From positions 186,001 to 250,000 of the forward strand of contig JBAMJV010003343.1 in NCBI GenBank assembly GCA_037951105.1: a stretch of DNA of 64,000 bases, given 5' to 3'. This document shows positions 6 to 62,773 of the stretch, in pieces (within the stretch, counting starts at the first letter, position 1; every line of letters begins with the position of its first letter). The position numbers and the translations under genes are program-made. Under the pieces are notes generated by a model. The model saw only the letters and a list, made by a program, of their open reading frames with translations. It did not search any database and was not told the DNA's origin. The DNA comes from Echinarachnius parma (lineage: Eukaryota > Echinodermata > Echinoidea > Clypeasteroida > Echinarachniidae).

Positions 6-2503
6 TTGAGTCTTCTTGTTATTTATCGACCACAACGAACAAGAGACCATAAATCTACATTTCAACCCTTTATTCAGGAATTTGGCTCTCTTTTAGAACA
101 ACTTGCAACGGAGAAAAATAGTCTCCTTATAGTCGGAGATTTCAATTTTCATGTTGATGATTTGTCTAATCGTGAAGCTTTAGCCTTCCTTGATATTGTA
201 GATACATTTGGTTTGGAGCAACATGTGACCATATCTACACATCGTGAGGGTCATACCCTAGATCTTATTCTCACACGTATATTCGATTCATTCGTTACTA
301 ATATATCCACAACACATTATTTGCCATCCGACCATGCTGCAGTTATATGCACTCTTTCAATTAATAAACCAGAGTTAGTCAAAGTAGACATCGCTTTGCG
401 CAAGATTAATGCCATAGACATTAAAGTTTTTCGTTCTGATATTCTTGCATCAGAGCTTTTTACTTTCCCTGTATCTGACATTGATGAGCTGGTTAAGCAG
501 TACAATCGTGTGCTAGCCTCTATCCTTGATCAGCATGCACTAATAATTAGACGTTCTATAACATGTCGTCCAAATGCTTCCTGGTACAATGAATCACTTC
601 ACGATATGAAACGGAAGGTTCGTAGGTCAGAAAGAAAATGGCGGAAATCTTGTTTTGAGGTGGATCGTTATATCTTTCAACAGGTGTCAAAACGATATAA
701 CGAACCCTTACTTGAGTCAAAAAGTATATATCATCAGGATAGAATTCAGTCTTCCGTTAATACTAAACAATGGTTTCAGATTATTAATAAGATGTGCACT
801 GCAAAGGCGTCTGTGGTCCTCCCAAGTACAGACAATGATGAGGGCGGTGACTCTTTAGCTGATCAATTTTCACAATTTTTCAGCAACAAGGTTAAATCTG
901 TTTTAGATAACATTAACCCATCTTTAAGTACTTGCGTAGACACATTTCAATTATGTAGTTCAGAATTTAATAAATTTGTTCCAATATCCATTGAAGCTGT
1001 GAAGCGTATCATTGTGAACTCTAAACCTACTACTTGTCGTTCTGACCCAATACCAACTTTTCTTTTAAAACGTTGTTTGGATGAAATTGCACCAATGATT
1101 ACACAAATAATTAAATTATCATTTGAAACTGGATATTTTCCATGTGATATGAAACACTCATATGTTCTGCCCTTGGTAAAGGGTGCAAAGCTGAATCCAG
1201 ATGATTTGTCAAATTATCGACCTGTTGCAAATTTATCATTTTTGTCAAAGGTTTTAGAGCGTGCTGCTGTGCTTCAGCTTCAGGAATACTTACATGCTAA
1301 TTCTTTGTTTGCCACAATGCAGTCTGCATATAGAACTCATTAGAGTTGTGAAACGGCTCTAGTACGTGTCTACAATGCCCTGCTTCTTAGTGTTGATAGA
1401 GGAGAAGAGGCCATAGTTGTTCTTCTTGATTATTCGGCCGCTTTCGATACAATCAATCACAATATTCTTTTTCAGCGCCTACAAGACAGGTTTGGACTGC
1501 ATGGTTAGGCCCTAGCATGGGTGAAATCATACTTTTTTGACAGATCCCAATCTGTTATTGTCAAATCATGTCTTTCTAATTTTAGCTACCCAAAGGAAGG
1601 CGTCCCGCAGGGGTCTGTGTTTGGACCGCTTGCTTTTTCGCTTTATGTTTCACCATTAGAGGATATTATTGCTAGTCATGGGGTATCTCGTATGATATAT
1701 GCAGATGATACTCAAATTTATGTTGTTTTTAAATCTTTAGAGTTTAAAAAATATTCAAGATTGGTCTTCATTAAATATGTTGTGTTTAAATGAAAGAAAG
1801 ACTGAGGTAATTCATGTATCCTCCCGTTATCGACACACTGCATCCCTTGATGTGGCGTTCAATGATAAAACGTTGAAAAAGGTAGATTGCATTCGTAATC
1901 TTGGGGTTATGTTTGATAAGAATTTGTTAATGGTTAATCATATTAATAAAGTCTGTCAATGTGCCTCATTATCATTGTATAGAATTGGTGAAATTAGACA
2001 ATACTTAAATGAAAATATGACTGTTAAACTTGTACATGCTTTTATTTCATGTTATCGTGACTATTGTAATAATCTTGTTTACAATTTACCCGATACTCAG
2101 TTGAATCGCCTTCAAAAAATACAAAACCGTTTCTGCGGCTCGGCTAGTATCTAGATCTCAAGTAAATGAGCATACTACTCCTATTTTAAAAAGATTACAT
2201 TGGTTGCCTGTCAAGGCTCGTATTGAGTTTTAAATTCTTGTACTTAAGTGTCTCCATAATATGGCACCAGCGTATTTGATGGAATTAATTGTAGAATATA
2301 AACCAGGCAGAACTTTGCGTTCTCAGGATAACTCTGTTTTAATTGTTCCTAAAATATTCACTAAATCATATGGTGATCGATCATTTCAAGCGGCAAGTGC
2401 AGAATTGTGGAACAGAACACCAAGCCACATTAAACAATCTGGGTCATTGTTACAATTTATGACAAGCTTGAAAACTCACTTGTTCCATTGTTACTTTCCT
2501 TGA
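6..2503 (+). pseudogene. Decayed LINE (CR1/L2-like) endonuclease-reverse transcriptase ORF
   Basis: This is the coding part of a non-LTR retrotransposon and continues upstream of the window. The first block (6-1343) has the C-terminal half of an APE endonuclease: GDFNFHVDD near residues 44-52, HTLDLILT near 83 and SDHAAV near 108. It then runs into the reverse transcriptase N-terminus (SDPIPTFLLKRC, NYRPVANLSFLSKVLERA). In-frame TAG stops lie at 1341 and 1506. Beyond them the RT core continues (AAFDTINH, GVPQGSVFGPLAFSLY, catalytic IYADDTQ near 1700). Frameshifts near 1740-1790 and 2140 separate the thumb and C-terminal region (RLHWLPVKARI; YGDRSFQAASAELWN), which ends at 2503. The family is CR1/L2-like, judged from the C-terminal motif order and the tail. 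The stops and frameshifts make it inactive. Confidence 0.9.
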
Positions 2504-22465: not shown

Positions 22466-22547
22466 GTGACGTAGCGTGGTCGGACTAATTAGGAAAGGCA
22501 GATGAATTATTTTTTGGGGGAGGGGGGCAAATTATTAGTAACACAAT

Positions 22548-37914: not shown

Positions 37915-38319
37915 AATGGTATCAAATTCCAATGATTTTGATGAATGGAAAGGGTGGCAGTATTCAATAGAAAGTGAACTTTCAAAAAACTGGTCAGCAC
38001 AGTCATGCACTCGTAAATTAAATGCATTGAGCCATTTTGCGACATTTCACTTCCTGCCTCCCCCTATTCTCTGGGCAACTGCAATCGCCCCAATTGCATA
38101 ATCACTACACATAATGCACCGTTTGAAAGGTATATAATGAGGCTTTATTGTGACACCAATTTCGAATATGCTTAATAAAAAATACGAGAGATATGATCGA
38201 TCAAACTTGAGTTTCCGAACTTTTTTTGAGGGGTTTATTCCAAAAATGATTTTGAAAATTTTTGAAAAAGTGCAAGCATTTTAAAAATATTTTTTTGAAA
38301 AAAAATCATCTAATTACTT

Positions 38320-38708: not shown

Positions 38709-39615
38709 CCATATTTAGGTCAAATAATATACATTATATTATTACTGTTCGTTTCATTCCGTTTTCTGTCGTATTTAAAGTAACGGTTACTATGATGAGG
38801 GGTCACGGTGTAAAGCGATTTATGTTTCGATGCGATGTAGCCTATGTGAATAAATTGAAATCATGATATGAATCCACCAATTTCACTTTGCGTAGTTATT
38901 CTATTGTAAAATGTATAGTGGTCTTAAATTGCATGGAATGCAATCGGTGGATTACAATCTCACGAATGTAGACTACCTTCAACCAAATCATAGTATTGCT
39001 ACAATGTAATAGATATTATAATAATACAAATAATGATGATGATGATAATAATAATATGATTAATAATAATAATTAAAATAATACTACTAACAATAAAACT
39101 AACAATAATATTGATATTTATACTAAGAATAATAATACCAATAATACTTTTAATGACGATAATGATAATAATGATACGAGGACAAAGAAGAGAAGAAAAA
39201 AGGAGAAGAAGAATGCAATAGAAACAACATCAACAACGGTATAGAGGTAACGAAAATAGACGCATACATAACTGTGATCAAGACAACAAGATACAAACAT
39301 AAATCTTACAAAAGTGACTATCCCAAGGGTGACCTAATATGTGGATGACAACTGTCACATGACAGGTCAAAGAAATGCCACCCTCTGAAATATGAGCTCA
39401 GGTTGATCACGTGACCATAGATATACACACGGCGGCGCCACATTTTTCTTAGAATTTGAACGTCGCTAGGGGATACCCACCAGCCACAAATGTGATGTCA
39501 CGATAAACGCAGGTCTATAAATAAAGAGTATTGGTTTTGGTTCCTCTCATCCACATCCACACTTTCTTTTGGCGTGTCTGTGTGTTTGTGTGTATAAGTA
39601 TGTGTCTTTTACTGT

Positions 39616-42468: not shown

Positions 42469-43744
42469 ATGCCAATATATAATTTCAATGAACGTGATAA
42501 TCACACCATTGCTGACCTGAAACAGGCTCTCCCAGATTTTGTACTGCATCAGGTATCCAGACAAAACAAGGGAGGGGGAGTCTGCATCCTGCTCCATAAG
42601 TCATTTGTTGTTAAGATAAATGCATTAGAGAAATATGTATTTTTTGAATATATTGATTTGTCCATTCAGTTTAAGTCATTCGTTATTCGGTTTGTAATTG
42701 TGTATAGACCCCCTTGTTCTAAAATAAATATCTCCCCCACTTCTGTTTTCTTCAACGAGTTCGCTTCACTTGTTGAATCTATTAGTGTATCATCAACTAA
42801 CTTTATTATCGCAGGAGACTTCAATCTCCATATTGATAATCTAGAGAATAGTGATGGAAAAAAGATGCTCGACCTTATTAATTGATTTGATTTGCACCAA
42901 TATGTAAACGCGATCACACATACTCATGGTCATACACTCGATTTATTAATGACCCGAAGATCATTAGTCGAGGTCATTTCAGATGTTTCAATAATTCAGG
43001 GGTTGCCATCTGACCATCATGCTGTCCAGTGCATGGTTGACATTAGTCACCCACCTGCTGACAAGAATAAGATTTCTTTTAGAAAAATACACTCCATTGA
43101 TATTCATAGATTTAAGGATGACATTTTAAAATCACCTTTGTATTCGAATAGAAGTCAAGACGTTGAAGATTTGACAATTCAATACAATACTGTTGTCGCC
43201 AATCTACTTGGTATTTATGCTCCGATTATTAATAAAGATATGACTACAAGGACTAACCCAACATGGTATAATCAAGAGGAGCTTCATAAGAGACGACGTC
43301 TCGAACGCAAATTCATGAAATCTGGGCATACAGTTGATGAACAGAAATATAATGATCATTGTAAGGTATACAAAGATAAGCTAGAAATAGCTAAACGTCA
43401 ATACTTTACTAACAAGCTCAAGAATAGTGATGCAAAGACCCTCTTCAGCATCGTTAAATCATTGAGCACCCCCAATACCGATAAAGTATTTGACTGCCCT
43501 AAAACTCTCGCTGGAGAATTCGCAGAGTTTTTTTAGGCTAAAATCATTGGAATTCGTGCTGATCTGGATGCTACTGACCCTCTCCCTTTGTCAGTTGATC
43601 CCCCTAGAAGAGAGTCGGAATCAACTTTTGAATTTTGTATGGTTACTGAAGAAAACGTAAGGAAAATTATAATGGAATCTCCATTGAAAACTTGTTTGCT
43701 TGACCCAATCCCCACTCAACTCCTAAATAAGTGCATTGATCCAC
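42469..43744 (+). pseudogene. CR1/L2-like LINE ORF, part upstream of foldback insertion
   Basis: The non-LTR retrotransposon lacks its 5' end; homology starts in the middle of the APE endonuclease (KGGGVCILL, IVYRPP, IAGDFNLHID, HGHTLDLLMT, SDHHAVQC). A TGA at 42883 and a TAG at 43534 break the frame. The RT N-terminus follows (ESTFEFCMVTEENVRKII, LDPIPTQLLNKCIDPLI). At this point a 4.1-kb foldback element interrupts codon-precisely; the reading frame resumes at 47885. It shares family and tail type with the LINE at window start. Confidence 0.9.
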
Positions 43745-43756
43745 TCATCGGTTCCA

Positions 43757-44226
43757 TGACATATGCTCCGCCGACATTTGCTCCGAAAAATGCGACAAAT
43801 GCTCCGCGACAAATGCTCCGCGATATTTGCTCCGCCGACAATTGCTCCGCCGACAAATGCTCCGCCGACATTTGCTCCGCCGACAAATGCTCCACCGACA
43901 TTTGCTCCGCCGACAATTCCTCCGCCGACAAATGCTCCGCCGACATTTGCTCCGCCGACATTTGCTCCGCCGACATTTGCTCCGCCGAAAATTGCTCCGA
44001 AGCTGCGACAATTGCTCCGCGACATTTGCTCCGCCGACAATTGCTCCGAAGCTGCGACAATTGCTCCGCGACATTTGCTCCGCCGACAATTGCTCCGCGA
44101 CAATTGCTCCGCCGACATTTGCTCCGCCGACAAATGCTTCGAAGATGCGACAATTGCTCCGCCGACAATTGCACCGCTAACGTTTACTCCGCCAACATTA
44201 GCTACGTCGACAATTGCTCCGCCGGC
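43757..44226 (+). repeat. 15-bp tandem array, R-type, second foldback element
   Basis: About 30 GCTCCGCCGACAWWT units with AAT/TTT/ATT variants. The inner end is degenerate. Open frames of up to 240 codons through it are repeat artefacts, one of them fused to LINE sequence. Confidence 0.95.
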
Positions 44227-44316
44227 AAAGACGACATTTTGTTAGTATCCGTTAGTATTATAAGAATGCGAAATGCAAATCTAAACAAAATTGGAACTCC
44301 GAAAATTTAACAGTGG

Positions 44317-46823
44317 GGCAATTCCACGCCAAAGTGGACATTTGACCAAAAATTTTACAAGCATTTTTATGATACAAATTTGGTATCAAATCAAAGCTTA
44401 AATTCTATATTTTGGGAATTCAATGAGAAAATTTTAGTTTTGCATAATTTTTTTTTATTTTTTATTTTTTATAATAACTTTATAACCATAATTGAATCCC
44501 ACAAATTTGACATTTTTGTGAAAAAGTGTTTTGATCCAGTGTTTGTTTTATATTTCCCCAGTTAAGCCTAAAAACCATTATTCTGACTCCTGAGATATGA
44601 CCATTTCGTAAAATAGTAAATTTGTATGATTTATTTGATTTGTTATGCTTTAATGACTTCTTATTTTCAGCCTATGAAAATGTCCTTCCGTTACCGAAAA
44701 ATCATTATTTTTAATTTTGTGGCTCACATAATTGTTAGAGAGCAGACCAATCTTCAGTGCAAAGCAAGTTCAAGTAGGCCTTCCCATTGCTAACAATTGT
44801 ATTACTCATTGTTTCTTCGTTAATTAATAAATAACAAAAGAAAATGTCCTTCCGTTACCATACACATGGTAACAGATGGACAAGGTACCTCATATTACAT
44901 ATTATGACAAAAATTTATGTTAAAAAATTGGTCTCTCATATATGAAAACCCAAAATAATGAGACAATACCTGCAATGGCCAGCTATCAGTGGCGTAGCGT
45001 GGTCAGACTAGTAATTTTCTGTGTTTCAACCAATCAGATTTGTGCATTTAGAACATTTGATCTTGCTCACAATTGATTTTATCTCTTTCTGCAACAGGGC
45101 CCCTGTACCATGATGCCATTTGTCTGGATTTCTATTGTATGGGGATTAGTAGGTCTATTTAACTGTGGTGAGCCAGGGTGTGAATAGGCCCTGATCATGA
45201 CTTTGAATAGGTCTTTTTTAAATACAATACACCCCTATAGAATTCTTGGACATGGGTGTAGGTCTAAAATAATTACATTTTACATGAAATTTGCAAACTA
45301 AAAACAAGGCTGTAGAAAAAACAAGAAATAATATATCTCCAATTATTTAATATGTTGTAGAAATTATATCAAGCCAAGATTTAAGCAAAACAAATTCTCA
45401 AAATTATTTGATCCACGAGGTAAAACGGAAGGTCAAAATCTAAGGTCAAAGGTTATCGTATCCAAACTCGCTCATGCATGAACACAAATGGCATAAATGG
45501 ATTGCACATAACATCCCCAGTCCAATGACACCATTACAAAATAAATTGACCCAACGGTTAATGGACAATGGCCATTTGAAAAATGGTGCCCTCGCCCATT
45601 TCTTACAAAACTCCCCCATAAGAATCGACCATAGCGCCAAAACCATTGGGCGGATTGGGCTAAAACTTAAATACTTGCGCTTTTAAAGGTTGAAATATCA
45701 TACATACCAAATATTAGCAAATTTGAAGGGAGCTGCGATGAAAATTTTCACTTTTTTAAAAGGTGATTTGACATGGAATGACCCTACTGTGTCATATCAT
45801 ACATTATAGTCCATTATGTCCTTCCGTTACCGAACATTGGTCCGCTTTGTGTGAAATATCTCAAATATCTGTGGACAAATTTTAATCAAAGAATAAGTAA
45901 ATTCTTCTTAACCCTTCAGAGAATGAAATGTGTACCCTTAAAATATTTGGTATTATTTAATAGCACAGAGTTTTAGTTAAAACTGATTTGATAACAAAAC
46001 CTTGTTCATTTTGGTGTCCTTCCGTTACCGACCTCATTTGTATGCATATTCAATAATGTGCGGAGATAAAAAAATTAAAAAAATTATGGGACCTTAAAAC
46101 TGTATGTTTTGGAAGTATTGTTATCAAAATAGACTGTTCTAACAACACAAGTATTTAAAAATGTCTTTCTTAAAGTTGACAATTTGTGTCTGAGTGTCCT
46201 TCCGTTACCATGGATTGACCATGAATAAGAGCCATTGGAGCATGAAATATAGTAAGAAAAAAATAGAAATGTAAATGCTTGTGATGTCCATATGCTATCT
46301 ATGATACAAACTCATTTTAGACCACAAAAGAGATGTTTCCTTCTCATAAATGGTCTTTAAATTTCAAAATTAATTTTATTGTACAATTCGTATAGACTTT
46401 TCAGAGGTCCTTCCGTTACCGTCCTTCTGTTACCGAACACTGGAGTAATTAATTTCTCATAATTAATATACCAATGTAGATATTTTTCTTAAAAGGTGGT
46501 GTTATACTCTGTGAACATAAGGAAATTGACTAGTAGCCAACTAAACATGATAAACCTCGTAACTTCACAGAGATTGGGTCATAACTAAAAAACTTGAAAA
46601 AATCCATGTCCATTTTGGCGTCCTTCCGTTACCGGCCTCATTATTGTCCATATCTAATTTACATAATGCGGTCAAAATTTTAGAAATAGTGGAAATCAAA
46701 GGTGTCCCAACAAGGATCAAAGACATGCCATTTAGAATAAAAAATCAAAAGCAGGATCCTGGAATTATTTGATTTAAGTTCCAAAATTGTGTCTGAATGT
46801 CCTTCCGTTACCGTGGAATTGCC
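44317..46823. mobile_element. 2.5-kb element with interspersed GTCCTTCCGTTACC motif array
   Basis: The ends are GGCAATTCCACG and CGTGGAATTGCC. The 6-bp target CAGTGG is duplicated (44311-44316, 46824-46829), and the foldback copy at 31016 has the single target near 32035. Nine copies of GTCCTTCCGTTACC, two of them adjacent, lie all in the same direction, the last ending 11 nt from the right end. A diverged ~603-bp internal duplication preserves three motifs at the same spacing. A repeat shared with 52178-52290 is nested at about 44995-45115. Only short ORFs occur (longest about 70 codons), so it is non-autonomous. Confidence 0.85.
44682..46812 (+). repeat. Dispersed 14-bp motif array
   Basis: GTCCTTCCGTTACC starts at 44682, 44847, 45818, 46016, 46196, 46407, 46421 (one mismatch), 46620 and 46799. 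A degenerate inverted copy (GGTAACAGATGGACA) is at 44869-44883, and a degenerate terminal copy (CGCCAAAGTGGACA) at 44327. Intervening sequence is AT-rich and much more diverged than the motifs. Confidence 0.9.
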
Positions 46824-47388
46824 CAGTGGGTGAAAATAACGTTCTTTGAATTTTGATAAAACGCGGATAAATTTTTAACTCATGCGGAACAATTTCTTGA
46901 TTCATAAAGAGTCTGAGTAATAGAAATGCAGTGATTATAAAGACTTTTCTTGTTGCTATTCATGATCGATCTTAACACCAGTATCATGTCCTTCGCTTGA
47001 TGGGCTTGGAACAGTATACTATTCATCACAGCATTTTCGGATACTATGAGGGTCCGTGGTTCGACTCCAGTCGAACCCCAATGTAACATCAAAAACTAAA
47101 GCCAGTGTTGTGTGTTATTGCGCCTCCCCTTCTGCTACTAGATGCAGGCTGCAGGGTCACGCATCCTTACAACACTGAGCTTGACTGCCCCCCCCCCCCC
47201 CCCCCCCCCCCACCCTGTATAAAGAAACGTGAAACAAACAAACCAGCCAATAAAATATTTGAATGAATCGATGGTTACTGAATCGATTTTACTTCAATTT
47301 CACAAGAGATTCGCATAACATATAAAAGCGCACTTCATACCAAAGGTACTTGAGAATTCATTCAAGAGTTTAATCTTCAGCAGAGTAA

Positions 47389-47870
47389 ATGTCGGTGGAA
47401 CAATTATGGTTGAGGAACATATGTTGTTTTTAGACCATTTGAAGTACTGTCATCTTCAGAGCATATATTTCTGCGGAGCAATTGTCACCGGAGCAAATGT
47501 CGTATCTCCGGAGCATATTTCGGCGGAACAATTGTCGGCTAAGCAATTGTCGCATATTCGAAGCATTTTCGGCGGAGCAATTGTCGCATCTTCGGAGCGT
47601 TTGTCGGCGGAGTAATTGTCGGCGGAGCAAATGTCGGCGGAGCAATTGTCGGCGGAGCAAATTTCGGCGGAGCAATTGTCGCATCTTCGGAGCATTTGTC
47701 GGCGGAGCAATTGTCGGCGGAGCAAATGTCGGCAGAGCATTTGTCGGCGGAGCAAATGTCGGCGGAGAATTTGTCGCGGGGCAAATGTCGGTGGAGCATT
47801 TGTCGGCGGAGCAAATGTGGGTGGAGCATTTGTCGGCGGAGCATATGTCGGCGGAGCATATTATGTCGTG
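47389..47870 (-). repeat. 15-bp tandem array, L-type, second foldback element
   Basis: Unit reads ATTTGTCGGCGGAGC on the + strand. Its order of variants and the diverged inner units (GAAGATGCGACAATT on the minus strand) follow the array at 31018. Confidence 0.95.
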
Positions 47871-47884
47871 TCACCCCACTCATC

Positions 47885-49323
47885 CCAATTATAACAGAAA
47901 TTGTAAATAGTTCATTGTCTTCTGGGATAATGCCTGCAGTTTTGAAGATGTCACATGTTTCGCCGATTATTAAAAAAATAAATCTCGATAGAGATGTTCT
48001 ACAGAATTATCGACCAGTATCACAATGACCTTTCCTTGCCAAGGTTATTGAAAGGTGTGCCTGGAAACAGCTTCAAAATTACTTTGAAGCCAACGATTTG
48101 TATGCAGAAACACAATCAACATACAGACTTAATTATAGTACTGAAACAGCACTTCTCAGGGTCCAGAATGACCTCCTTAGTGCTACTGACAAACATCGCG
48201 AAGCAATCTTAGTGCTTCTCGATCTCAGCGCAGCCTTTGACACAATTGACCACACAATGTTATTAGAGAGACTTAGGTCACGCTATGGCTTAGGCGAGGC
48301 AGCCCTCACCTGGTTCTCATCATATCTCAAGGATCGTAAGCATACAGTTGTCATTATCTCAACCTCACTTCCTTAATTGTCGTGTTCCACAGGGGTCTGT
48401 CATCGGCGCGCCTGCTTTTTCATTTTATACTAGCCCACTCAGTGACATTATTTTTGAACACCAAATCAATCATATGATATATGCAGATGATGTACAATTA
48501 TATATTGATTTTGACCCATTAGAAAAGCTTAGTGCTATTTAACGATTGGCATCTTGTATTGCAGACATTAAGTCTTGGGCCACTCAAAATAAACTTAAAT
48601 TTAATGACACAAAAACAAAAATTATTCATATAAGCTCACGCTTCCGTCCTTGTTCTATCCCATTAATTAAAATTGGAGATACTTTTGTGCAGCCTGTTCC
48701 GAAGACTAGGAATCTAGGCGTTATATTCCATGAACATCTCCAATTAAAAGATCAAGTTATAGTAAAACTGTTAGTGCTGGATGGTCTGGTATCTATACAA
48801 TTGGTAAATTGAGGAAGTATTTGGATCAATCATCATCTGAAAAACTTGTCCATGCTTTCATTACATTACATATTGACTATTGCAATAGTCTTCTTGCCGG
48901 TATACCTGACATTGAGATTTCAAGACTACAACGTCTACAAAATGCGTCTGCCAGAAGTATTACTCGTTCTAAACGCCACGACCATATTACCCCTGTATTG
49001 TATAATCTTCATTGGCTGCCTGTTCATTTACGCATACATTTTAAAATATTGTTGATAATGTTTTAATGTTCTACAGGCAATGCCCCTAGCTATTTAAGAA
49101 ATTTGATTGTCCCGTATGCACCAACGAGAAGACTCAGATATGTCACTCAAAATGTGTTTGTTATACCAAAAGTGTTTTCAAGATCTTATGGTGAACGGAC
49201 ATTCTCCTTTATTGGACCGTATTTATGGAACGCTCTGCCTAACTGGGTCAAGACCTCTTCCTCAATTGACTCATTCAAATATAATCTAAACAATTATCTC
49301 TTCAAACAACATTATCAGTCATA
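47885..49323 (+). pseudogene. CR1/L2-like LINE ORF, part downstream of foldback insertion
   Basis: Continues the LINE from 43744: PIITEIVNSSLSSG, VLKMSHVSPIIKK, NYRPVS, then ETALLRVQNDLLSA and LDLSAAFDTIDH, VPQGSVIGAPAFSFY, and the catalytic MIYADDVQLY (about 48472-48501). The thumb (SWATQNKLKFNDTKTKIIHISS) and C-terminal region follow (FITLHIDYCNSLLAGIPD, LHWLPVHLRI, SYGERTFSFIGPYLWNALP), with stop at 49322. Frameshifts near 48010, 48365, 48770 and 49050 and a stop at 48539 make it inactive. The 3' hairpin tail (to about 49990) is split by a T1 MITE. Confidence 0.9.
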
Positions 49324-49397
49324 GCTCAACCACTCTCTATTTCTTTACTTCGTATACTCTAATTTCCTTTTATAAAGCGCTTAGAGGCTTGTTTGCA

Positions 49398-49960
49398 TTA
49401 AAGGGAAAGTTGAGTTTTGGTAGAGAGGGCGCTAGACTACTTAATTGGTTTGTGAGGTAATGAAAAACTGAGTGTAAAATTTGAAAGAGCATAATATTTA
49501 AACAATAAAATCATCTTTGTTTGATCAAAATCGGTTCAGAAACGGCTGAAATATCCATAAATATAACAATTTGTAATAAACCCGGGGCCCCGGGTTTATT
49601 AGAGAATTTTGAACCAGCCGTTAAAAATTCAAAAAAATGCTTCCTCTTTTCAAAAAGTTACAAAATAGGTATTTAAATAGTTGTTGGTTATTTCTCTATC
49701 TAATCACTATTTCAACAAAGCATCACATGCACAATATTTTATTCAAAATGGTTGAAACCGAGGAGTGTTTAGAGAGCGCCCTCTTACGTTTTAACGGCTC
49801 TGTTTTAATGATAACATGATCTTTACTACGTCATTTGTAATTTTGTGTTCCTTTCTAGTTATAATTATTAGTTTGTAATGTAATGATGCAGGTTTTGGTT
49901 ACTAAAATTCAGTTTCACTAAAACTGTACTCTCCTTACCAGAACTCAACTATCCCTTTAA
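49398..49960. mobile_element. T1 MITE inserted in a LINE 3' tail
   Basis: A complete copy with TTAA at both ends. The LINE tail GCGCTTAGAGGCTTGTTTGCA resumes as GCGCTATATAAATTCGTC. The related LINE end at 58820-58850 has TTTGCTTTAAGCATTATAC uninterrupted, so a single TTAA was the target. Confidence 0.95.
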
Positions 49961-50029
49961 GCGCTATATAAATTCGTCATATTATTATATTTGTAGTGGT
50001 AATGCATACAACAGATACTAACATGCGGA

Positions 50030-50103
50030 TATGGTGTGGCGAAATTGGTAGAGCGCGCGCTTTCCGATCATGAGATCCCGAGTTCGAACCCTGCCCACTG
50101 CGT
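50030..50103 (+). repeat. tRNA-like SINE head
   Basis: A-box TGGCGAAATTGG and B-box GAGTTCGAACC at tRNA spacing. The T-stem and acceptor stem do not pair, so it is not a working tRNA. Confidence 0.55.
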
Positions 50104-50405
50104 AATAGTGATATGCCTAGTGTATATATACCTTACAACTGTTGCAACAGATGTGCAATTCGCAAACATGGCTTAGTAAAAAATAAGTTCTCTTCTTGAC
50201 TCGGAGTACAATGTCATCGAATACAAAACGTGCAACAAATTGTGTATACATCTATTTCGGGACCAGTGGAGAATATTATTATGGCACTACGGTTTTACGC
50301 TAGGCCCAACAATTGAAATATTAATTGTTGTTTATGTTTAAGCCATTGCAGAATTGCAGAATATTATTGTCTTAATGAATGTTGATTATTCAATGCATTT
50401 CATTT

Positions 50406-50725
50406 GAACATCTAGTTCAGTATTTCTTTGCCGAGTTATATGAATTGTATGCAATTCATTGATTTTTTGTCTACAATATCCAAACAAAATATACCTACAA
50501 ACGTCATGAGTGTCCCGATTGTGTGGTTTAACGCTACGGGTGCCAATCCGACTCTTCCAATGTTTGAACATCTACCTCAAAATATATTTCCCGTGTTACA
50601 TGAATATTTTGCAATTCATTCATGCCTTTTCCACACTATCCCTCTACCCTAAAAAGGACCTACAAACATCAAGAGTATCCCGTATGCAATTCATTAATTT
50701 ATTTTCTATAATATCCACAACAAAG
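50406..50725 (+). repeat. Partial tandem triplication of a VMAT intron-exon edge
   Basis: Three diverged direct units begin near 50406, 50567 and 50681. Each has ATGCAATTCATT or a variant, followed by a TACAATATCC-like pyrimidine stretch. Unit 1 repeats the coding edge of the first VMAT exon (ACGCTACGGGTGCCAATCCG against ACGCCACGGGCGCCAATCCG). Unit 2 keeps only AAAGGACCTACAAACATC and AGTATCCCG. Unit 3 runs into the real exon. Unit 1 lacks the acceptor AG; unit 2 keeps AAAAAG|GACC. Confidence 0.8.
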
Positions 50726-50918
50726 GACCACCTGTAAACGTCACGACTGTCCCGGCTGCGTGTGTGAACGCCACGGGCGCCAATCCGACGGTTCTAACGG
50801 AGCATCAAATGTACGACGAGATCCTAGGTCACGAAAGCGTCCGCATCGGGCTTCTGTTCGCCTCCAAATCCATCGTACAGCTTGTAACCAACCCGCTCAT
50901 AGGCCCTCTCACAAACAG
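50726..50918 (+). CDS. VMAT: VMAT exon 1 in window: lumenal loop 1 and TM2
   Basis: Encodes [19 protein letters not shown] (two N-glycosylation sequons, NVT and NAT, in the lumenal loop), then [20 protein letters not shown] and [19 protein letters not shown]. The acceptor AAAG|GACC is the least certain edge, because this region was triplicated. Donor AACAG|GTATCG. Confidence 0.88.
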
Positions 50919-52604
50919 GTATCGATGACATCGATTCGTACATGTCAATTATGTGATTATTTTGAAATTAGAAGTTCAGAAATTTCGAAGTTTCCCGATC
51001 TGACTTATGTTCTCTTCCAGCCCACTGAACAGCTTATAACATGTCATGCATAACTAATCCGCTCATATACCCCCTTAACACTGATTTAATCAAAGGGCTA
51101 GTCAGTTAGTAGCGTATGTAAATGTATCTTTGTCCACATTCACAACAAATACTTAGAACTCGATTGGTTCTATCATACCTTGTTGTGTTCGTATTACCAA
51201 TAGAAGCATGCAACATGTTCCGTTTTTTCGAATTTTCTACACGTTTTTGTCTTGCCAATTTATCACCGTCATTGTCAATTTGAATAAGGCAATGACGAGA
51301 TATTCTTAAACCAAGATCCATATCTACTGCAATGGCGCACATTCATTACGGCATGTGTAAAACAGTACAATCAAACTGACATTACAGATGCAAAAGAGTA
51401 CCCTGTATTGTCAGGTCATCATGTTTGATGTACTGCCCTACTCACCTACTCATCCCTCATTATACCCATATTATCATTCTGTTCTTTTTCATTTCCTCGT
51501 CATTCTTAATAATTATCCAGTAGACAATTCCATATCAATACACTTCAATCGTAAATATCTTTTGAACGAAATGGAAATTTGAAAAACCGAAACCTGACCC
51601 ATGATTTTGTTCTTGATACGAATAAAACAAGGTATGAGGGAACCGCTAGAATTCCAATTGGATGTTGAGGATTTGGACAATGTTACTAAGTGCCTTTAAT
51701 AATGGATGATAGTTTTCATAGTATAGTGCTGAGATGTAACGACAAATCCGAAACCAGTCGTAGCTTTTTAATCCAGTCGGGTCGGTTTTAGAAGTACATC
51801 TTGGAAAGCACTGAACTGCTAGCCTATTTTAAAGCATAATAAGTATACATTTATTATCTAAAGTGTGTTGATTTTGTCTGTTGTAATCCTTTATCAAATG
51901 AAATATAATCCAGCTACATTGCACATTATGGTACTAAAAAATAATATGAATAATTTAATCATGAGAAACCTCTTCCTTATTTGCCCATATGCAGGGTAGG
52001 CTACTCACTACCAATGTTCACTGGATTTATCATCATGTTTGCCTCCACCTTAGGTAAGTGAAGTCCTTTTCAATATACACATGATAATTTAATAATCATT
52101 ATAATGACAATTATTATACTACATACCCCGTTGCAAGAAGAGATATAATCTATTGTAACTTATTGATTGTAAATCAGAAAATGTGCGAGTTTCAACCAAT
52201 CAGATCTGCGCATTTAGAACACGTGATCGAACTTACAATATTTACAATCTTACAATCGATTGTATCTCTTTCTGCAACGGGGCCCAGGTAATATTAAACA
52301 AACTCATACAATGAGTGATAATAATAATACAAACAATGTCAATACCGCAAACCACACGTATTAATGTTAATACTATAAATCATAATAACAATAATAATAT
52401 TAAAAATCGTAATCATCATCATAATAATATTAATGATACTTATGATACTAATACTACTTATACTACTACTACTACTACTTACAATAATAATACTACTACT
52501 AATAATAGTTATACTATATGTAACAATCATACTTATGTTATTAATAATACAATAATAGTACTTATAGTACTAACATTACTAATAATAATCTTATACAATT
52601 ATTT

Positions 52605-52635
<31 letters not shown>

Positions 52636-55600
52636 GTTGAACCTCAATGTAATTTCATCTTTATTCCAGTGTTTGCTTTCGGGGAAAGCTTTACAATTCT
52701 TCTCATAGCAAGAATGATTCAGGGAATCGGGTCATCGTGTTCTTCAGTCGCAGGTAAGTACAACATTGGAAACAGGGGCATTCGGAGGCAAGGGGTGGGG
52801 GGGGGGGGGGGCAGGGGGCAGGGGGCCCTAGCAAAACGGCGAAAACGCAATAGGGAAAATAAAGATAAAATTTATCAGTTATAGTGTGCCCTATCTTTAG
52901 TAGTACGTACATTAAGCCTCTTTCACTGAGTGTTATGTCAAAAAGTTGTCATTACGAACGAAATTATATTACCTACATGCTACGAATCTATATTTTGTAC
53001 TAGTACTATACATGTAAAAGGCTGCAACACTTGATATTTGGACTAGCTTATGTACACTCATTACAACAAAACATCAACAGGCTATTGATTTATTCTCAAT
53101 TAGTTATTTTAATTTGTAGTCTTTGTTTATTCTATTTAGTCGTAGCTTATGATATACAATCTGACATTATTAAAGAATATACCGTACGTCATCAAGCCAT
53201 AATGCAATAATGACACCATATTATTATTTCCACGTCATAAGTCTTGCTATTTTAATTGACGAGCAAAGAGTAAACTAATATATTGCTTTTGACTTTATTA
53301 TGCTACTGACATTTCCCTAATTACTGACATTTTCCTAATTACCCGACCAGGAATGGGAATGCTCGCCCAGAGGTTCCCCGATGATGCGGAGAGGGGAGCC
53401 GCCATAGGCTTCGCACTCGCTGGTCTAGCTCTCGGAGTGCTTAGTGAGTATTGATGTGTTTGCATGTATTTAAGCACATACAGCCCTTGTTTAAAAGAAA
53501 CATTTGGCCCTAATGGCAACATAACCATATATTTATGATAATGGTTAGATTGCCCATTCCAATTGGACGAAGGTCCGATGCAATATTTCATACCGCGACT
53601 AAACTTTAAACGAATGAACATTGCATAATATTATTATGTTATGCGCATGAAGATTATAGTTTTCATCATGGCATGCAAAATTGTGCTATATCATTCCAGT
53701 CGGTTGTAGAATATAAATTATATTTGGCTGGGCTCAAATTGATAGTCTTAAAAATATATAATACAAGTTATAATGAACATACATTATGATCATGTTATTA
53801 TCAACATACCGAAACAATATATGATCACGATTGTTATATTTGTTTTACGGTTTCTTAAGTTTGTCTGTAAGCTATAACATTACAATTTAATTCTGACCCA
53901 CATTTTTGTTCGAAACCCATATTACAAATTACCACTTTAATCTAGAAATTTGTGATCGCACACAAGTAGTGTGTTTTATTGTTTTACTGTAGGTCATTGT
54001 TATCATTGAACATTGTCATCTGTAAGGGGTTTCACACGATGGCCAAATCGTGATTGTAATCACGGTCTGCGTGAAGTCTTTTTCCTCGTGTGAAAGCAAG
54101 GCAACAGAATCACAGTGTTTGTAAACATGATTACAATCATGATTGCAATCACGATTTGGCTTGTGTGTGAAAGGGCTCTGAGTCGAAAGACACTCAAGTC
54201 ACATTCCATTGTCTAATGTTGTGTATTACAGTCGGGCCGCCTTTTGGTGGAGTCATGTACGAGTTCGTGGGCAAATCATCTCCGTTCCTCGTTCTAGCAA
54301 TCCTAGCTTTACTAGACGGTCGTAAGTATTATTAGCGAAGGTAGTCTTGTCTCTCGATGATTGTATTGTACCCCCCCCCCCCCCTCCCGTGCCCTCCAAC
54401 TGTTCTAAGCTCGAAACATGTACATATTAATACTATCCTCGCATTTAAAATGGTGGTACGTATATACATTATATACTGTTGAATCCACGCTTCGAACCCC
54501 CCTCCACCAGTGGCGTAGCTACGGACGGGGGGGGGGGGGGGGGGGGGGGGGTGGGGGGGGGGGGGGGTCGTGCACACCTCCTACATTTTACAATAACAAT
54601 AAAAACATAAGGGTTCATCTTTGAAAAAAATAAAATAAATACATAAGCCGTGCCCCCCCCCCCCCCCAAAAAAAAAAATCAGTCCGACCACGCTACGCCA
54701 CTGCCTTTATACACGATCTACATGAGGGCCATTCTTGGTCACGTGTGTGACCCAAAACATGACAAATTTTGAAATGGGATGCTTATATTTCAGTAAGTAT
54801 GAGACTATAATGGTTTTTACTTCATATGTGACTTGAATATGTTGTAGTCTTTCAAACTTAACACAAAAGATTTTATAAGGATTACGTAACTCAATGTCAG
54901 AGGTCAAATGGCATGGGTCACGTGTGTGACTTCGCACGGAGCGCTTTTTTTCATACCTAAATTTCATTTGGAAAATTCTTTAAAATATGAATAGCTATAA
55001 TGTTCATCTTATTACCAGAGAAGTACTATACATTTGTAAGTACAACAATAGCAATGAATGAAAATTATATCAAACCGTTGTTTTTTATAGTACTTAATTA
55101 TGTAGCAACGTCTGGTCACGTGTGTGACATTTTGGGGTGGTCACGTGTGTGACATGTACAATATGAATGGAAAAATGGGAATTTTATAATATCGGGTTTA
55201 GAAAAGAATGAAAGGTTGAATTTGTACAAAGTTGGTATCAACCTGTACAGGAAAGTGAGAAGAATGAGCTTGCTAATTATCCTTTTGATATCTTGATTAT
55301 TTTCTGAATTATGATTATTAGAAAAATATTGAAATATGTAAATTTATGCAAATGAGTAAAAAAGTTTCATTTTAAACTTCAAATCATGTATTTCATGAAA
55401 CTTTACACATGGATCATTCCAAAAATGGAACAAAACTACAGAAAAATAAAACTTCAATTTTTCCGAAAAAGTTTCACTTTTCAAAGAATGGCCCATGAGC
55501 AGATCGAATTTATCGTGGTACCGACTAGGTTTTTGGTTGTAAAAAAGGCAATTCGAAGGCATTTTCTGTCAACCTTTTACATTTACAGATTGATGATATA

Positions 55601-60373: not shown

Positions 60374-62773
60374 AACAAACAAACAAAACAAAACGAAACA
60401 AATAACAACAACAAAACAAACAAACAAACAAACAAACAAACGGGTAATAACAAACACACAAACAAACACAAATAAAAGAGCACATGAAATTGTCCTTAAC
60501 GTACCTTTTGCGTCTATTGATATACATGCTTCTAAATAATTATAGATACAACTATTATATTTCCAATCAGATTCCGCTATCTCAGAAAGTGCCGCATTTA
60601 ATTGGACCAAACTTTTTCGTCGGCTTTGGTGTAGGTAAGTAAACGTTTCCATACCAATGTAGTCTAAATAGTCTCATAGGGGTACGAAACGGGGACTGGT
60701 AGCACTGCCTATGAGATGTCATGTTTTCTAACTCTGTACGGCCTTCCTCATAATACGCACTACAGCAACCGATAAAGATTGCCCGGCGGCCTTCCAGCAC
60801 ATTTTCATTATACGCTTATTGCCACCTAGATGGCGACACATTCTTTTTTTTTTTTGAATTTTTTATTTGATTGTTCTTTTTCGTGCAAAAAAAAAAAAAA
60901 TTATTATTTCATAGTATTTAATAGTATTATTTCTTATCGTTAGATGGATACCATTCAAACCTCGGAAATTGTGCGAGTATCTCAATTGGTGTCGATGTCA
61001 TGTTCTCTAACTCTTGGGAGCTAGAGAGGGCGGTATTTACATCAGTCGTCAGGGAAATATCAGGTTTTGATAACATAATCGACCATTATAATATGCTATC
61101 GCTGAATATTTTTTTATATTTGTGTGTTTTATTGAAAAAATCAAGGCAGATCACAATATTTACAAGTTATTAACATGATAAGAAACAAACATTACTAAAC
61201 AAATTACTATATTTACAATAGGTTAGGATAAATCATACAAAAAATAAAAAGAATCTTGCAGTAACGTTTCCTTTTTCCCAAAACTCAACGAACAATGTTT
61301 TTTTTTTCGTCTGAATTCTCAACAGTGGGTTGTATTTAACGCGGGGTCCGATTGCGTAACGTAATCAGTTGTAGCAATCCGTGAACTAAGTCTAACCCAT
61401 GGATTGAATTTGGTTTTACTAACCTTGCGTTAAATTAAACCCGTGTTCTAAATTAACCTATAAGTTAAATTTAAAATTCTGATTAAAACACATGTTTATG
61501 GCTAGAACTAACAAATACAGCTTTTCTCGTTGGGTTTCGTCGGGATTCCAACCCGAGACCTTTGGGTTGCTAGACTGGTGCTCTAACTATTGAGCCACAG
61601 GCCCGGACAAATCGTGGTACCTCGCATAAACCATTGTCAATGCTCATGCTAGTCAGAAACTATTTGCAACCTGACACAAACTCAATTGTTTAAGTTTTAA
61701 GTGACCATAAATAAACGAAATAAATCATTCACTTGATTAAAGGGATAGTGTTGGTCAAACTTACCAAAACCTGCACCATAACATTACAACCTAATAGTTA
61801 TAACTCCATCATGGTCAAAAGGTATACAAAATTACAAACGAGTAAGTAAAAATCTTGTTATCATTAAAAAAAAAAGAGCCGTTAAAACACAAGAGGACGC
61901 TCTCTAAAAACGTATTGGTTTCAAGCATTTTTTATAAAAAAAATTGTGCATGTGATGTTTTGTTAAAATAATTATTACACAGAGAGATCATCAACAACTA
62001 TTTAAAAACCTCTTTTGTAAATTTTTGAAAAAAAGTGTAAACATTTTTTGTTCTTCTTAAATCATCGAATACAAGTGGGATCAGATCGGATGTATTTATT
62101 GATTTTTTTTAACTGTTTCTGAACCGATTTTGATCAAATAAAGTTTATTCTGTCATTAAAATTGTATGTTCTTTCACATTTGACACTCGGTTTTTCATTA
62201 ACTTCCCCCCAAAAATGTATTTCTTGAAGCGCCCTCTATACCAAAACTGAACTATCCCTTTAAGTAAGCAACTAACCAGAAATAGATAAAATAAATTAAA
62301 TTGTTTTCTGGTCAGTTTCCTTTCTGTTGTATTTTTTAAAATTTTATTATTATTATTATTATTATTTTTTTTTTTTTTTGGGGGGGGGGGAAGCGATTCA
62401 TGTAATCTTTTTTCTTTCTCTTTTCTTTCTATTCTTCATGTAATTGTATCGGCCTCCTATATACGATTTCTCGTATACGTATATCATTCGATGATGCCCA
62501 TGGCGACCTTGTAGATATTTTTGTAAATGAATTTGCTGTATTTCCATGAAATAATGGAATTATATACTCATCATCCTCACGTTTCCCAGTACCCTCCGTC
62601 CAACGTCAAACAACCATATTTTGATTTTCTTTGTTGCCCCCACCCCCCTGCAGGAATGATAGATGCTTCGATGATGCCAATCATGGGTCACCTCGTGGAT
62701 ATTCGACACGTATCGGTGTATGGCAGTGTCTACGCCATAGCGGATGTCGCGTTCTGTGTCGGATTCGCCGTGG
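50726..62773 (+). CDS. VMAT: Vesicular monoamine transporter (SLC18 family), 11 internal exons
   Basis: A proton-coupled antiporter that loads monoamines into secretory vesicles; 12-TM MFS fold. The exons join in phase (except exon 7) into lumenal loop 1 to about TM11: [98 protein letters not shown]. Residues important in mammalian VMAT2 are present: TM2 Lys (ASK), Arg of ERG, Asp of LLDG, Arg of HRIGR, and Asp in MID and IAD. VMAT is favoured over VAChT by [19 protein letters not shown] and [11 protein letters not shown]1 and the last exons are not seen. Exon 7 carries an apparent frameshift, so the locus may be a real gene with an assembly or allelic error, or a pseudogene. Introns are loaded with MITEs and a LINE fragment. 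Confidence 0.9.
51087..51699. mobile_element. T3-related inverted-repeat element in VMAT intron
   Basis: Both ends resemble T3 (left AAAGGGCTAGTCAGTTAGTA; right, on the minus strand, TTAAAGGCACTTAGTAACAT) and mirror each other for more than 100 bp. TTAA lies at each margin. Confidence 0.75.
51995..52053 (+). CDS. VMAT: VMAT exon 2: TM3
   Basis: Encodes [19 protein letters not shown] after completing the Arg codon of LTNR. Acceptor ATATGCAG, donor GTAAGTG. Confidence 0.92.
52127..52284. mobile_element. Short inverted-repeat element in VMAT intron
   Basis: CCCGTTGCAAGAAGAGATAT at the left mirrors ATCTCTTTCTGCAACGGGG at the right. The interior segment AACCAATCAGATCTGCGCAT recurs inside the element at 44995-45115. 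Confidence 0.75.
52310..52640. repeat. AT-rich trinucleotide-like low-complexity sequence
   Basis: Mixtures of AAT, ATT and ACT units, ending in (TTA)n at 52606-52636, just upstream of VMAT exon 3. Open frames here are low-complexity artefacts. Confidence 0.9.
52670..52754 (+). CDS. VMAT: VMAT exon 3: TM4 region
   Basis: Encodes [20 protein letters not shown] then SSCSSVAG, the most conserved stretch of the family. Acceptor TTATTCCAG, donor GTAAGT. Confidence 0.93.
53351..53443 (+). CDS. VMAT: VMAT exon 4: cytosolic loop and TM5
   Basis: Encodes [20 protein letters not shown] and [10 protein letters not shown]; contains the ERG arginine. Acceptor CCGACCAG, donor GTGAGT. Confidence 0.93.
54024..54180. 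mobile_element. 157-bp inverted-repeat MITE in VMAT intron
   Basis: AAGGGGTTTCACACGATGGC with GCCAAATCGTGATTG at the left is mirrored by CACGATTTGGCTTGTGTGTG and AAAGGGCTCTG at the right. Non-coding hairpin. Confidence 0.75.
54232..54321 (+). CDS. VMAT: VMAT exon 5: TM5-TM6
   Basis: Encodes [18 protein letters not shown] and [11 protein letters not shown], including the MFS-type GPPFGG motif and the TM6 aspartate. Acceptor GTATTACAG, donor GTAAGT. Confidence 0.93.
54508..54703. mobile_element. hAT-like MITE with poly(G)/(C) interior
   Basis: CAGTGGCGTAGCTACGGAC at the left and GTCCGACCACGCTACGCCACTG on the same strand at the right are inverted termini. Long G runs (54526-54567) and C plus A runs (54652-54678) fill the interior. 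Relics with the same terminus are at 22466 and about 44992. Confidence 0.75.
54727..55493. mobile_element. 767-bp element with GGTCACGTGTGTGAC motif array
   Basis: The ends are GGCCATTCTT and AAGAATGGCC. The 6-bp target CATGAG is duplicated (54721-54726, 55494-55499). Four identical motifs lie in the same direction at 54737, 54916, 55114 and 55139. The first begins 10 nt from the left end. It has no transposase. Layout, target length and motif spacing match the right end of the 44317-46823 element, read in reverse. Each motif contains the E-box CACGTG. It sits in the intron after VMAT exon 5. Confidence 0.85.
55604..56021. mobile_element. T3 MITE in VMAT intron
   Basis: TTAAAGGGATCTATAGTAAC at the left and AAAGTTACTAGATCCCTTTAA at the right, with TTAA on both sides. 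Confidence 0.88.
56220..56324 (+). CDS. VMAT: VMAT exon 6: central cytosolic loop
   Basis: Encodes [34 protein letters not shown]. The TP-LLKDPY-LIAAG pattern is typical of the segment leading into TM7. Acceptor ACCACACAG, donor GTACGT. Confidence 0.92.
56832..57366. mobile_element. T1 MITE in VMAT intron
   Basis: Starts TTAAAGGAATAGTACAGTTT and has the usual T1 interior. The right end (ACTAAAACTGTACTATA) has lost its TTAA. It lies just upstream of exon 7. Confidence 0.85.
57477..57547 (+). CDS. VMAT: VMAT exon 7: TM7, with frame-changing deletion
   Basis: Reads [15 protein letters not shown] in the family frame. The expected ALPIW segment and about 25 nt are missing. Downstream the conserved KWQLG codons (AAGTGGCAACTCG) are present but in another frame. 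Splicing to exon 8 in the normal phase is therefore broken, and the observed frame meets a stop within exon 8. Acceptor TTGATCCAG and donor GTAAGA look intact. Sequencing or assembly error, a null allele, or a pseudogene could explain it. Confidence 0.8.
57627..57932. mobile_element. Short T3 MITE in VMAT intron
   Basis: TTAAAGGGATCTAGTAACAT to TTTACTAGATCCCTTTAA, 306 bp with TTAA at both ends. It begins 80 bp after exon 7. Confidence 0.88.
58472..58550 (+). CDS. VMAT: VMAT exon 8: TM8
   Basis: In the family phase encodes [20 protein letters not shown] and GHRIGR; the final Arg is split by the donor AG|GTAAGT. Acceptor TTTCTACAG. Confidence 0.92.
58675..58862 (+). mobile_element. 3' fragment of the CR1/L2-like LINE in VMAT intron
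   Basis: Matches the end of the LINE at 47885-49990 (GACTSATTCAAAYAYAATYT, CAGTYMTAGCTCAA, TTGTTTGC.TTAAGC) and ends with CGTCATATTATTATTATTAT. It supplies the uninterrupted TTAA site for the MITE at 49398. Confidence 0.85.
59298..59349 (+). CDS. VMAT: VMAT exon 9: TM9
   Basis: Encodes [17 protein letters not shown] after the split Arg. Acceptor TTTGCAG, donor GTAAGA. Confidence 0.9.
59911..59930. repeat. Short telomere-like run
   Basis: Three CCCTAA units (ATAACCCTAACCCTAACCCT). Too short to indicate a telomere; an interstitial relic or a chance run. Confidence 0.6.
60324..60445. repeat. Poly(C), poly(A) and (AAAC)n low-complexity tract
   Basis: About 17 C, then about 28 A, then AAAC repeats, immediately upstream of VMAT exon 10. 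Poly(Q/N)-like open frames through it are artefacts. Confidence 0.9.
60571..60634 (+). CDS. VMAT: VMAT exon 10: loop and start of TM10
   Basis: Encodes [21 protein letters not shown], comparable to the conserved LIxPNFxVGF stretch. Acceptor TTCCAATCAG, donor GTAAGT. Confidence 0.9.
61530..61606 (-). repeat. tRNA-like SINE head (minus strand)
   Basis: On the minus strand: TGGCTCAATAGTTAGAG (A-box) and a perfect 5-bp T-stem TCGGG/CCCGA around TTGGAAT. The acceptor stem does not close, so it is a tRNA-derived repeat. Confidence 0.6.
61737..62263. mobile_element. T1 MITE in VMAT intron
   Basis: Starts TTAAAGGGATAGTGTTGGTC and ends CAAAACTGAACTATCCCTTTAA, with TTAA at both ends; upstream of exon 11. 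Confidence 0.88.
62654..62773 (+). CDS. VMAT: VMAT exon 11: TM10-TM11
   Basis: Encodes [18 protein letters not shown] and [20 protein letters not shown], with both functionally important aspartates. Donor G|GTATGT. The following exon (expected to start with GPSAGG or similar) is not found before the window ends. Confidence 0.93.

Follow-up and report, generated by a model that had tools for sequence, protein, structure and literature searches.

How two elements within one 64-kb window (the whole stretch of DNA analyzed here) come to carry different short motifs at nearly the same distances from one end, and what those motifs might be for, is the question raised by this locus. The first-pass annotation had described the two elements as sharing similar termini and 6-bp target duplications, and the ends bear this out. 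Across the window, the left end-word GGCNATTC occurs exactly four times and the right end-word GAATNGCC three times. When end-word pairs 50-12000 bp apart were examined and exact flanking repeats tallied separately at every length between 2 and 10 bp, exact 6-bp repeats turned up at two pairs, 44317-46823 (CAGTGG) and 54727-55493 (CATGAG), while no pair of exact end-words in the 64 kb had flanking repeats of any other length in that range, including 9 bp. Allowing one mismatch per end-word (60 left and 51 right occurrences) at distances of 100-4000 bp returned the same two pairs and no third element in the 64 kb, against 0.17 pairs by chance in a shifted-flank control. The inverted ends are perfect in both elements, over 12/12 bp in element 1 (GGCAATTCCACG) and 10/10 bp in element 2 (GGCCATTCTT). 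Because both 6-mers have the form CNNNNG beside GG..CC, 4-bp duplications (AGTG and ATGA) with GGGC..GCCC ends fit equally well. The terminal 11 bases, GGCAATTCCAC versus GGCCATTCTTG, differ at 4 of 11 positions, or at 3 of 11 under the GGGC.. reading. Judged from stop-to-stop frames alone, the longest of which span 82 codons in element 1 and 84 codons in element 2, transposase coding capacity is absent from both, and inverted ends with exact duplications (6 or 4 bp) are what is expected of non-autonomous DNA transposons with terminal inverted repeats. Element 1, read from its right end as the motif-bearing side, has the following features:

44317..46823, minus strand: element 1, a 2507-bp DNA transposon without a long open frame, with inverted ends and CAGTGG duplication
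44311..44316, no strand: target duplication CAGTGG, left copy, exact
46824..46829, no strand: target duplication CAGTGG, right copy, exact
46812..46823, minus strand: motif-bearing inverted end, GGCAATTCCACG inward (13 nt counting the flanking G)
44317..44328, plus strand: inverted end, side without motifs
46799..46812, minus strand: motif GGTAACGGAAGGAC, position 12
46620..46633, minus strand: motif, position 191
46421..46434, minus strand: motif, position 390, one CpG-to-CpA difference, part of doublet
46407..46420, minus strand: motif, position 404, part of doublet
46196..46209, minus strand: motif, position 615, opening the second unit, preceded by end-like GGTCAATCCAT
46016..46029, minus strand: motif, position 795
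45818..45831, minus strand: motif, position 993
44846..44859, minus strand: motif, position 1965
44868..44881, plus strand: looser motif GGTAACAGATGGAC, 2 mismatches, facing the copy at 1965
44682..44695, minus strand: motif, position 2129

At up to three mismatches, 13 sites in the window match GGTAACGGAAGGAC (2.1 expected), ten of them inside element 1: eight exact and one single-mismatch copy on the minus strand, and the two-mismatch copy on the plus strand at 44868. The others, at 1818, 9807 and 24237, each carry 2-3 mismatches. Sites 1965 and 2129 are 164 nt apart, off the common spacing, and no minus-strand motif lies within 365 nt of the other end of element 1. Element 2 is laid out as follows:

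54727..55493, plus strand: element 2, a 767-bp DNA transposon without a long open frame, with inverted ends and CATGAG duplication
54721..54726, no strand: target duplication CATGAG, left copy, exact
55494..55499, no strand: target duplication CATGAG, right copy, exact
54737..54751, plus strand: motif GGTCACGTGTGTGAC, position 11
54916..54930, plus strand: motif, position 190
55114..55128, plus strand: motif, position 388, part of doublet
55139..55153, plus strand: motif, position 413, part of doublet

All four window matches to GGTCACGTGTGTGAC at up to three mismatches (0.66 expected) are exact and lie in element 2, and near-identity of the motifs within each element, as previously proposed, is thus confirmed. 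The two motifs resemble each other modestly (10/15 with one gap; p 0.005 for random pairs, p 0.0014 holding the element 1 motif fixed).

Measured from one end, motifs start at 12/191/390/404 in element 1 and at 11/190/388/413 in element 2. The earlier claim of equal motif positions therefore holds for the first three sites, but an adjacent doublet (14 nt) is present in element 1 only, the interval in element 2 being 25 nt. In a simulation that assumed uniform placement of four sites, all three reference positions fell within 2 nt with p = 9e-6, and two of three within 1 nt (388 versus 390 being off by 2) with p = 5.5e-4. Satellites and low-complexity sequence were masked, and the 85,967 remaining positions were scanned for 14-mers that reappear at +179 with no more than one mismatch; there were 13, all 13 in the two elements; five of these recur also at +377..379 and lie directly inside the GGC(A/C)ATTC ends. 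Since the distance scanned had come from the elements themselves, 201 distances were tested without motif or end information, removing that bias: repeats at two loci occurred at 179, 180 and 198 only. The two loci for 179, and likewise those for 198, are elements 1 and 2; for 180 they are element 1 and an unrelated place. The element 1 locus at 198 is its second unit, the first unit being spaced 199. Masked satellite boundaries are approximate in the +179 scan, the 201-distance test and the masked element comparison given below. Helical phasing is not argued for: with 10.5 bp per turn, 179 and 198 come close to 17 and 19 turns, respectively, but the intervals of 211 and 164 do not fit.

The DNA between the motifs, which had been described as weakly alike, proved no more similar than shuffled sequence. 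Spacer blocks of element 2 compared with the first unit of element 1 gave p 0.18-0.29 per block and with the second unit p 0.53-0.92, and the whole elements gave p 0.52 (masked, local) and p 0.47 (global, first 620 nt). The best unfiltered local match (A/T-rich, 58 bp, 69%, E 0.006) was discarded as spacer homology, its masked score being at shuffle level. Flanks of the 36 site pairs average 10.6/40 identical bases, and the best, one of 36, reaches 18/40 in register (795 with 190). The motif-free ends have AAAGTG in common near the terminus, yet compare with shuffles at p 0.15-0.73. Thus, relatedness of the elements has to be argued from ends and layout, since the spacers are no better than shuffled DNA; these features suggest common ancestry, with one ancestral motif that would have switched at all sites together.

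Comparison within element 1 is also informative. Its second unit, 603 bp on, is diverged; it has a 180/198 spacing and motifs that have hardly changed: 41/42 bases are identical between paired motifs, or 42/42 when 993 is set against the 404 copy. At about 30 nt and farther out, gap-free identity between the units is 2-10/15 per 15-nt bin, a measure lowered by indels. The units are only weakly alike, spacer blocks beating shuffles in two of three cases (p 0.017 and 0.037), and two local alignments around motifs, 45 and 57 bp long (82-84%), indicate that likeness reaches past the motif itself. Between the units, motifs outlast spacers. The motifs appear more constrained than the spacers, as for protein-binding sites, although their sameness could come from recent duplication or conversion instead of binding.

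The leading explanation, favored with about even confidence from these sequence patterns, is that both elements are non-autonomous DNA transposons carrying fixed-geometry candidate sites for a transposon-encoded protein, whose site specificity would have shifted between families. Elements 1 and 2 would then represent two probably related families of non-autonomous cut-and-paste transposons, and the motifs starting near 11, 190 and 390 nt from one end would be candidate sites for a DNA-binding protein, either transposase or accessory, that an autonomous relative would provide in trans. Such a protein would require several sites in fixed geometry at one end, to assemble a transposition complex or mark the element, and this need would account for positions being kept while spacers drifted beyond recognition. 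Least certain is the final step, in which specificity would have shifted between GGTAACG..GAC-type and GGTCACG..GAC-type with all sites following; co-evolution is inferred here from two elements within a 64-kb window.

An unlikely alternative is that a roughly 200-bp tandem repeat was amplified and homogenized within each element and then decayed to short cores, with no protein involved. The element 1 intervals of 179, 199, 14, 211, 180 and 198 scatter around 200 bp except at the doublet, its unit recurs at 603 bp, and likeness fades away from the motifs, all as this account would have it. However, the self-matches listed for element 2 (E up to 0.1) span 16 nt, the motif plus one base, and homogenization is unlikely to leave a core of a mere 14-16 nt; nor are two different cores at equal end offsets in two elements expected.

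Arabidopsis VANDAL elements, offered in the first-pass annotation as the closest analogy, belong to a plant MULE lineage with 9-bp duplications, which neither element here has. In the excerpted account of PMC5735166, the VANC21 target YAGTATTAY forms arrays of a single orientation in non-coding DNA, and related families have different motifs. The motifs here are likewise short, nearly all in one orientation, non-coding and element-specific, which favors a VANC-like role. In that role an element-encoded protein on the motif array would strip silent chromatin or methylation from the element, with a separate protein and motif for every family. CpG content bears on this role, and on the leading explanation as well, in both directions. 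Outside its motifs, element 1 has a CpG observed/expected ratio of 0.37 and a TpG/CpA ratio of 1.36 (window, 1.17), as expected from past methylation, and its stretch is narrowly the lowest in the window (0.533 versus 0.544 for the next). Its motifs retain 15/18 CpGs (Fisher p 0.0009, with the expected CpG number estimated and the nine copies assumed to be C at the start), and the three departures from CGGTAACGGAAGGAC across nine copies are all CpG-to-TpG/CpA. The remainder of element 1 is nevertheless CpG-depleted rather than protected, and element 2 is unremarkable (0.62 outside its motifs, with CpG just as low in 16% of 770-bp windows). In addition, the targets of VANC, as excerpted from PMC5735166 and PMC10398659, form dense tandem repeats that change rapidly. 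A VANC gene is known for VANDAL elements; in the elements here no protein was seen, and the motif intervals are 164-211 nt, with one of 972 nt and a single close pair in each element (14 and 25 nt). Sparse, fixed sites starting directly inside the terminus fit end recognition better, and the VANC-like role is judged unlikely. Slimmer still is the prospect of an independent animal counterpart of VANDAL/VANC, namely a transposon lineage whose family-specific DNA-binding protein would recognize a fixed, nucleosome-scale array at one end, co-evolve with all its sites between families and shield the element from silencing.

Control of the elements by a host transcription factor or host repressor binding the motifs is as doubtful as a VANC-like role. 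CACGTG is the E-box core, and inspection of GGTCACGTGTGTGAC reveals both this core and the near-palindrome GTCAC-N4-GTGAC. However, GGTAACGGAAGGAC contains neither, so a single host factor poorly explains both motifs at equal positions, and in each element the first site lies directly against the transposon end. That the elements are unrelated and their layout coincidental is very improbable, despite spacers without detectable similarity, the 4 differences in the terminal 11 bases and doublet spacings of 14 versus 25 nt, given that two-locus distances of 179 and 198 pick out exactly these two elements and that the simulated p-values are as low as stated above.

Anatomically, the subterminal repeats of CACTA (En/Spm-type) elements are a closer match than VANDAL, which remains a reasonable functional analogy. 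In the excerpts of PMC2613891, a trans-supplied protein, TNPA, reads subterminal repeats, which sets a precedent for the leading explanation. These repeats, like the motifs here, are short, asymmetric between ends and different among related elements of one host; motifs of the Tgm1 and Tgmt* groups differ at 6 positions, and diversification together with the DNA-binding protein was proposed. The CACTA inverted ends are 13 bp long (12 and 10 bp here). The same excerpts describe repeats that are dense (24 in 732 bp of right border and, on the left, 4 in 159 bp) and both direct and inverted, in contrast to sparse sites, nearly all of them on one strand and spaced about 180 and 198 nt apart, and termini of CAC..GTG with a 3-bp duplication, in contrast to GGC..GCC with 6 or 4 bp. 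A subterminal repeated motif is thus shared with CACTA/EnSpm, but the termini and duplication are not.

Other assignments were compared as well. The Repbase superfamily rule, as excerpted in PMC4455052, calls for equal duplication length and at most one mismatch over aligned terminal positions 1-11; here duplication length is equal and four of the 11 bases differ, so that the rule does not join the two elements in one superfamily. IS3EU and GingerRoot usually have 6-bp duplications, a reading that fits here (as does 4 bp), but the excerpted termini are TA..TA, TAYGG..CCRTA in rust fungi and at times TG..CA in GingerRoot (PMC10045372, PMC12730594), unlike GGC..GCC. Dada-U6 has 6-bp duplications and short subterminal repeats, and Dada targets small RNA genes, but it lacks terminal inverted repeats in the excerpt of PMC3706591, whereas inverted ends are present here. 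No Rfam match was found at or beside either element, the sole match in the window being a borderline tRNA at 61532-61604. hAT6 is characterized by a 6-bp duplication, a hAT transposase and typical hAT ends; its duplication would be compatible with the 6-bp reading, and the ends here differ from the typical ones. Paired element 1 motifs had no matches in viral or prokaryotic contigs, and paired element 2 motifs none in viral contigs. The end-plus-motif pattern matched at least 120 stretches in viral contigs; these look like chance, since in none among the 120 matches listed does the same GGTNACG-N3-6-GAC word occur twice within 1 kb. A literature search for the motif strings gave one match, unrelated, through a 12-mer.

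Subterminal repeats are reportedly already known in animals, in goldfish Tgf2 (hAT) and zebrafish P elements. Family-specific motif arrays are described in CACTA and VANDAL, both plant cases (excerpts of PMC2613891 and PMC5735166), and no animal case of such an arrangement is announced in titles or abstract openings of the open-licence papers listed. If the layout holds genome-wide, animals would offer a system of repeated sites that keep their positions while the site sequence is swapped, such that a transposon DNA-binding protein and its sites could be followed as they change specificity together; it would also raise the question of why the spacing lies near nucleosome length.

Within the window, 109 candidate ends were scanned for the layout, here a 14-mer that comes back 170-189 nt farther in with at most 2 mismatches; this matched elements 1 and 2, two ends in satellite tracts (43912 and 38533) and, with 2 mismatches, the other end of element 1. 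Separately, the word TAATTTGCATATT is present at 18484, 18651 and 18828.

Two elements in the window, element 1 and element 2, each have short inverted ends that match perfectly and are flanked by an exact duplication of 6 bp.

44317-46823, minus strand: element 1, 2507 bp, its right end motif-bearing
54727-55493, plus strand: element 2, 767 bp
54714-54719 and 55501-55506, around the duplications: near-palindrome CGATCT / AGATCG flanking the element 2 insertion site
45419-45434, plus strand: GGTAAAACGGAAGGTC, resembling a degenerate motif with 2 nt inserted, inside element 1

The window contains no other pair of ends with such duplications, even when one mismatch per end-word is allowed (expected, 0.17). 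The 6-bp duplications claimed by the first-pass annotation are exact in both elements. Both have the form CNNNNG next to GG..CC, however, so a reading as 4-bp duplications and GGGC..GCCC ends is just as good. The longest stop-to-stop frames span 82 codons in element 1 and 84 in element 2. The near-palindrome around element 2 may reflect a palindromic target preference, or chance.

Element 1 carries eight exact copies of GGTAACGGAAGGAC and one copy with a single change, all on one strand, in addition to a two-mismatch copy on the opposite strand; element 2 carries four exact copies of GGTCACGTGTGTGAC. Counted from the motif-bearing ends, motifs start at 12, 191, 390, 404, 615, 795, 993, 1965, and 2129 in element 1, and at 11, 190, 388, and 413 in element 2, the first site in both lying directly inside the terminal word. 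The starts agree with the earlier claim of the same layout with different motifs. The finding centers on the intervals between sites, which are 179 and 199 in element 1 (180 and 198 for the second unit of that element) and 179 and 198 in element 2. At the opposite end of element 1, no minus-strand motif occurs within 365 nt, and no motif occurs in the last 340 nt of element 2.

Motifs are nearly constant within each element. Between the two units of element 1, which lie 603 bp apart, 41 of 42 motif bases are identical in the alignment used, and all 42 of 42 when the sites are paired the other way. Likeness reaches 45 and 57 bp (82-84%) around the first two sites; beyond ~30 nt from the sites, bins of 15 nt share 2-10 bases without gaps. 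Spacer blocks of the two units are 59-65% identical when aligned, and two of the three exceed shuffled sequence (p = 0.017, 0.037, and 0.26); the self-matches listed for element 2 are 16 nt long. The CpG observed/expected ratio of element 1 without its motifs is 0.37 (0.25 in the first 1010 nt), and a 2.4-kb stretch at 44401, inside element 1, is narrowly the lowest of 308 windows (0.533 vs 0.544 for the next; median, 0.92). Of the CpGs inside the motifs, 8 of 9 are retained, as are 7 of 9 CpGs formed with the preceding base, all three departures being CpG-to-TpG or CpA. This pattern suggests that element 1 was once methylated and that its motifs were either recently identical or protected; it fits both. 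CpG content in element 2 is ordinary (0.62; 16% of 770-bp windows are equally low).

We read both elements as probable non-autonomous cut-and-paste transposons, with motifs to which a protein from an autonomous relative, acting in trans, would bind. The transposon anatomy, the motif arrays, their geometry, and the constancy of motifs within each element are observed; binding, a role for the fixed architecture, and a specificity switch are inferred. Rival explanations are decay of a tandem array, host factors acting at the motifs, and coincidence. With the first site inside the terminus and the array mostly one-sided, end recognition or complex assembly is a likelier role than one in chromatin alone. 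Among the systems cited here, CACTA elements come closest, with asymmetric subterminal motifs that are recognized by TNPA in Spm/En and differ between soybean subfamilies (PMC2613891). The VANDAL/VANC analogy drawn in the first-pass annotation holds for a family-specific motif in one orientation, but VANDAL motifs form dense tandem repeats (PMC5735166, PMC10398659), unlike these arrays. Two superfamilies with 6-bp duplications do not fit: IS3EU has TA..TA ends (PMC10045372, PMC12730594), and Dada is without TIRs (PMC3706591), whereas both elements have inverted ends.

Coincidence is an unlikely source of the shared layout, given the random-placement p values and a distance scan. With four sites placed at random, all three reference positions fall within 2 nt at p = 9e-6; at 1 nt, two of three match (p = 5.5e-4), and both consecutive intervals agree within 1 nt at p = 4.8e-5. 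The scan used neither motif nor end information, taking any recurring 14-mer with at most one mismatch at distances of 100-300, with satellites and low complexity masked. Of 201 distances, 171 had no locus, 27 had one, and 3 had two; at 179 and 198 the two loci were elements 1 and 2, and at 180 element 1 was paired with an unrelated place.

The two elements are not provably related by sequence. In-register spacer blocks of element 2 fall in the shuffle range against element 1 (p = 0.18-0.29 for its first unit, 0.53-0.92 for its second), as do motif-masked comparisons (p = 0.52 local, 0.47 global) and the motif-free ends (p = 0.15-0.73); the spacers offered earlier as weakly alike rise no higher than shuffle background. 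An alignment of the two motifs with one gap has 10 of 15 positions identical (p = 0.005 for random pairs; p = 0.0014 when one motif is held constant). At terminal positions 1-11 the elements differ in four places, whereas the Repbase rule for placing non-autonomous elements in one superfamily allows at most one mismatch there (PMC4455052). The case for kinship therefore comes from the type of ends and of duplications and, most of all, from the geometry of the arrays.

The 64-kb window resembles nuclear DNA of an animal. Retrotransposon fragments and satellite-like tracts also occur in it, among other features:

~52.6-62.8 kb, plus strand: vesicular monoamine transporter-like gene exons, from peptide matches
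~30900-31500, 38250-38800, 43550-44250, and 47430-47920, two tracts per orientation: satellite-like repeat CTCCGCCGACAATTG and variants, boundaries approximate
15713-16267, minus strand, and 16533-17024, plus strand: two near-identical open frames in opposite orientation
44987-45102, 52189-52285, 54681-54703, and 22464-22487: repeat common to the element 1 interior and other places

Vesicular monoamine transporters of solved structure are matched by plus-strand peptides at ~52.7 kb (best E = 1e-7) and at ~62.7 kb (best E = 1.2e-19); element 2 sits between these peptides and is probably intronic. The paired frames are apparently a recent inverted duplication, the plus-strand copy having a Pfam Lectin_C match slightly below cut-off. 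One satellite-like tract shortly precedes element 1 and another shortly follows it. The repeat inside element 1 is possibly a nested hAT-like fragment, and its word CAGTGGCGTAGC adjoins element 2.
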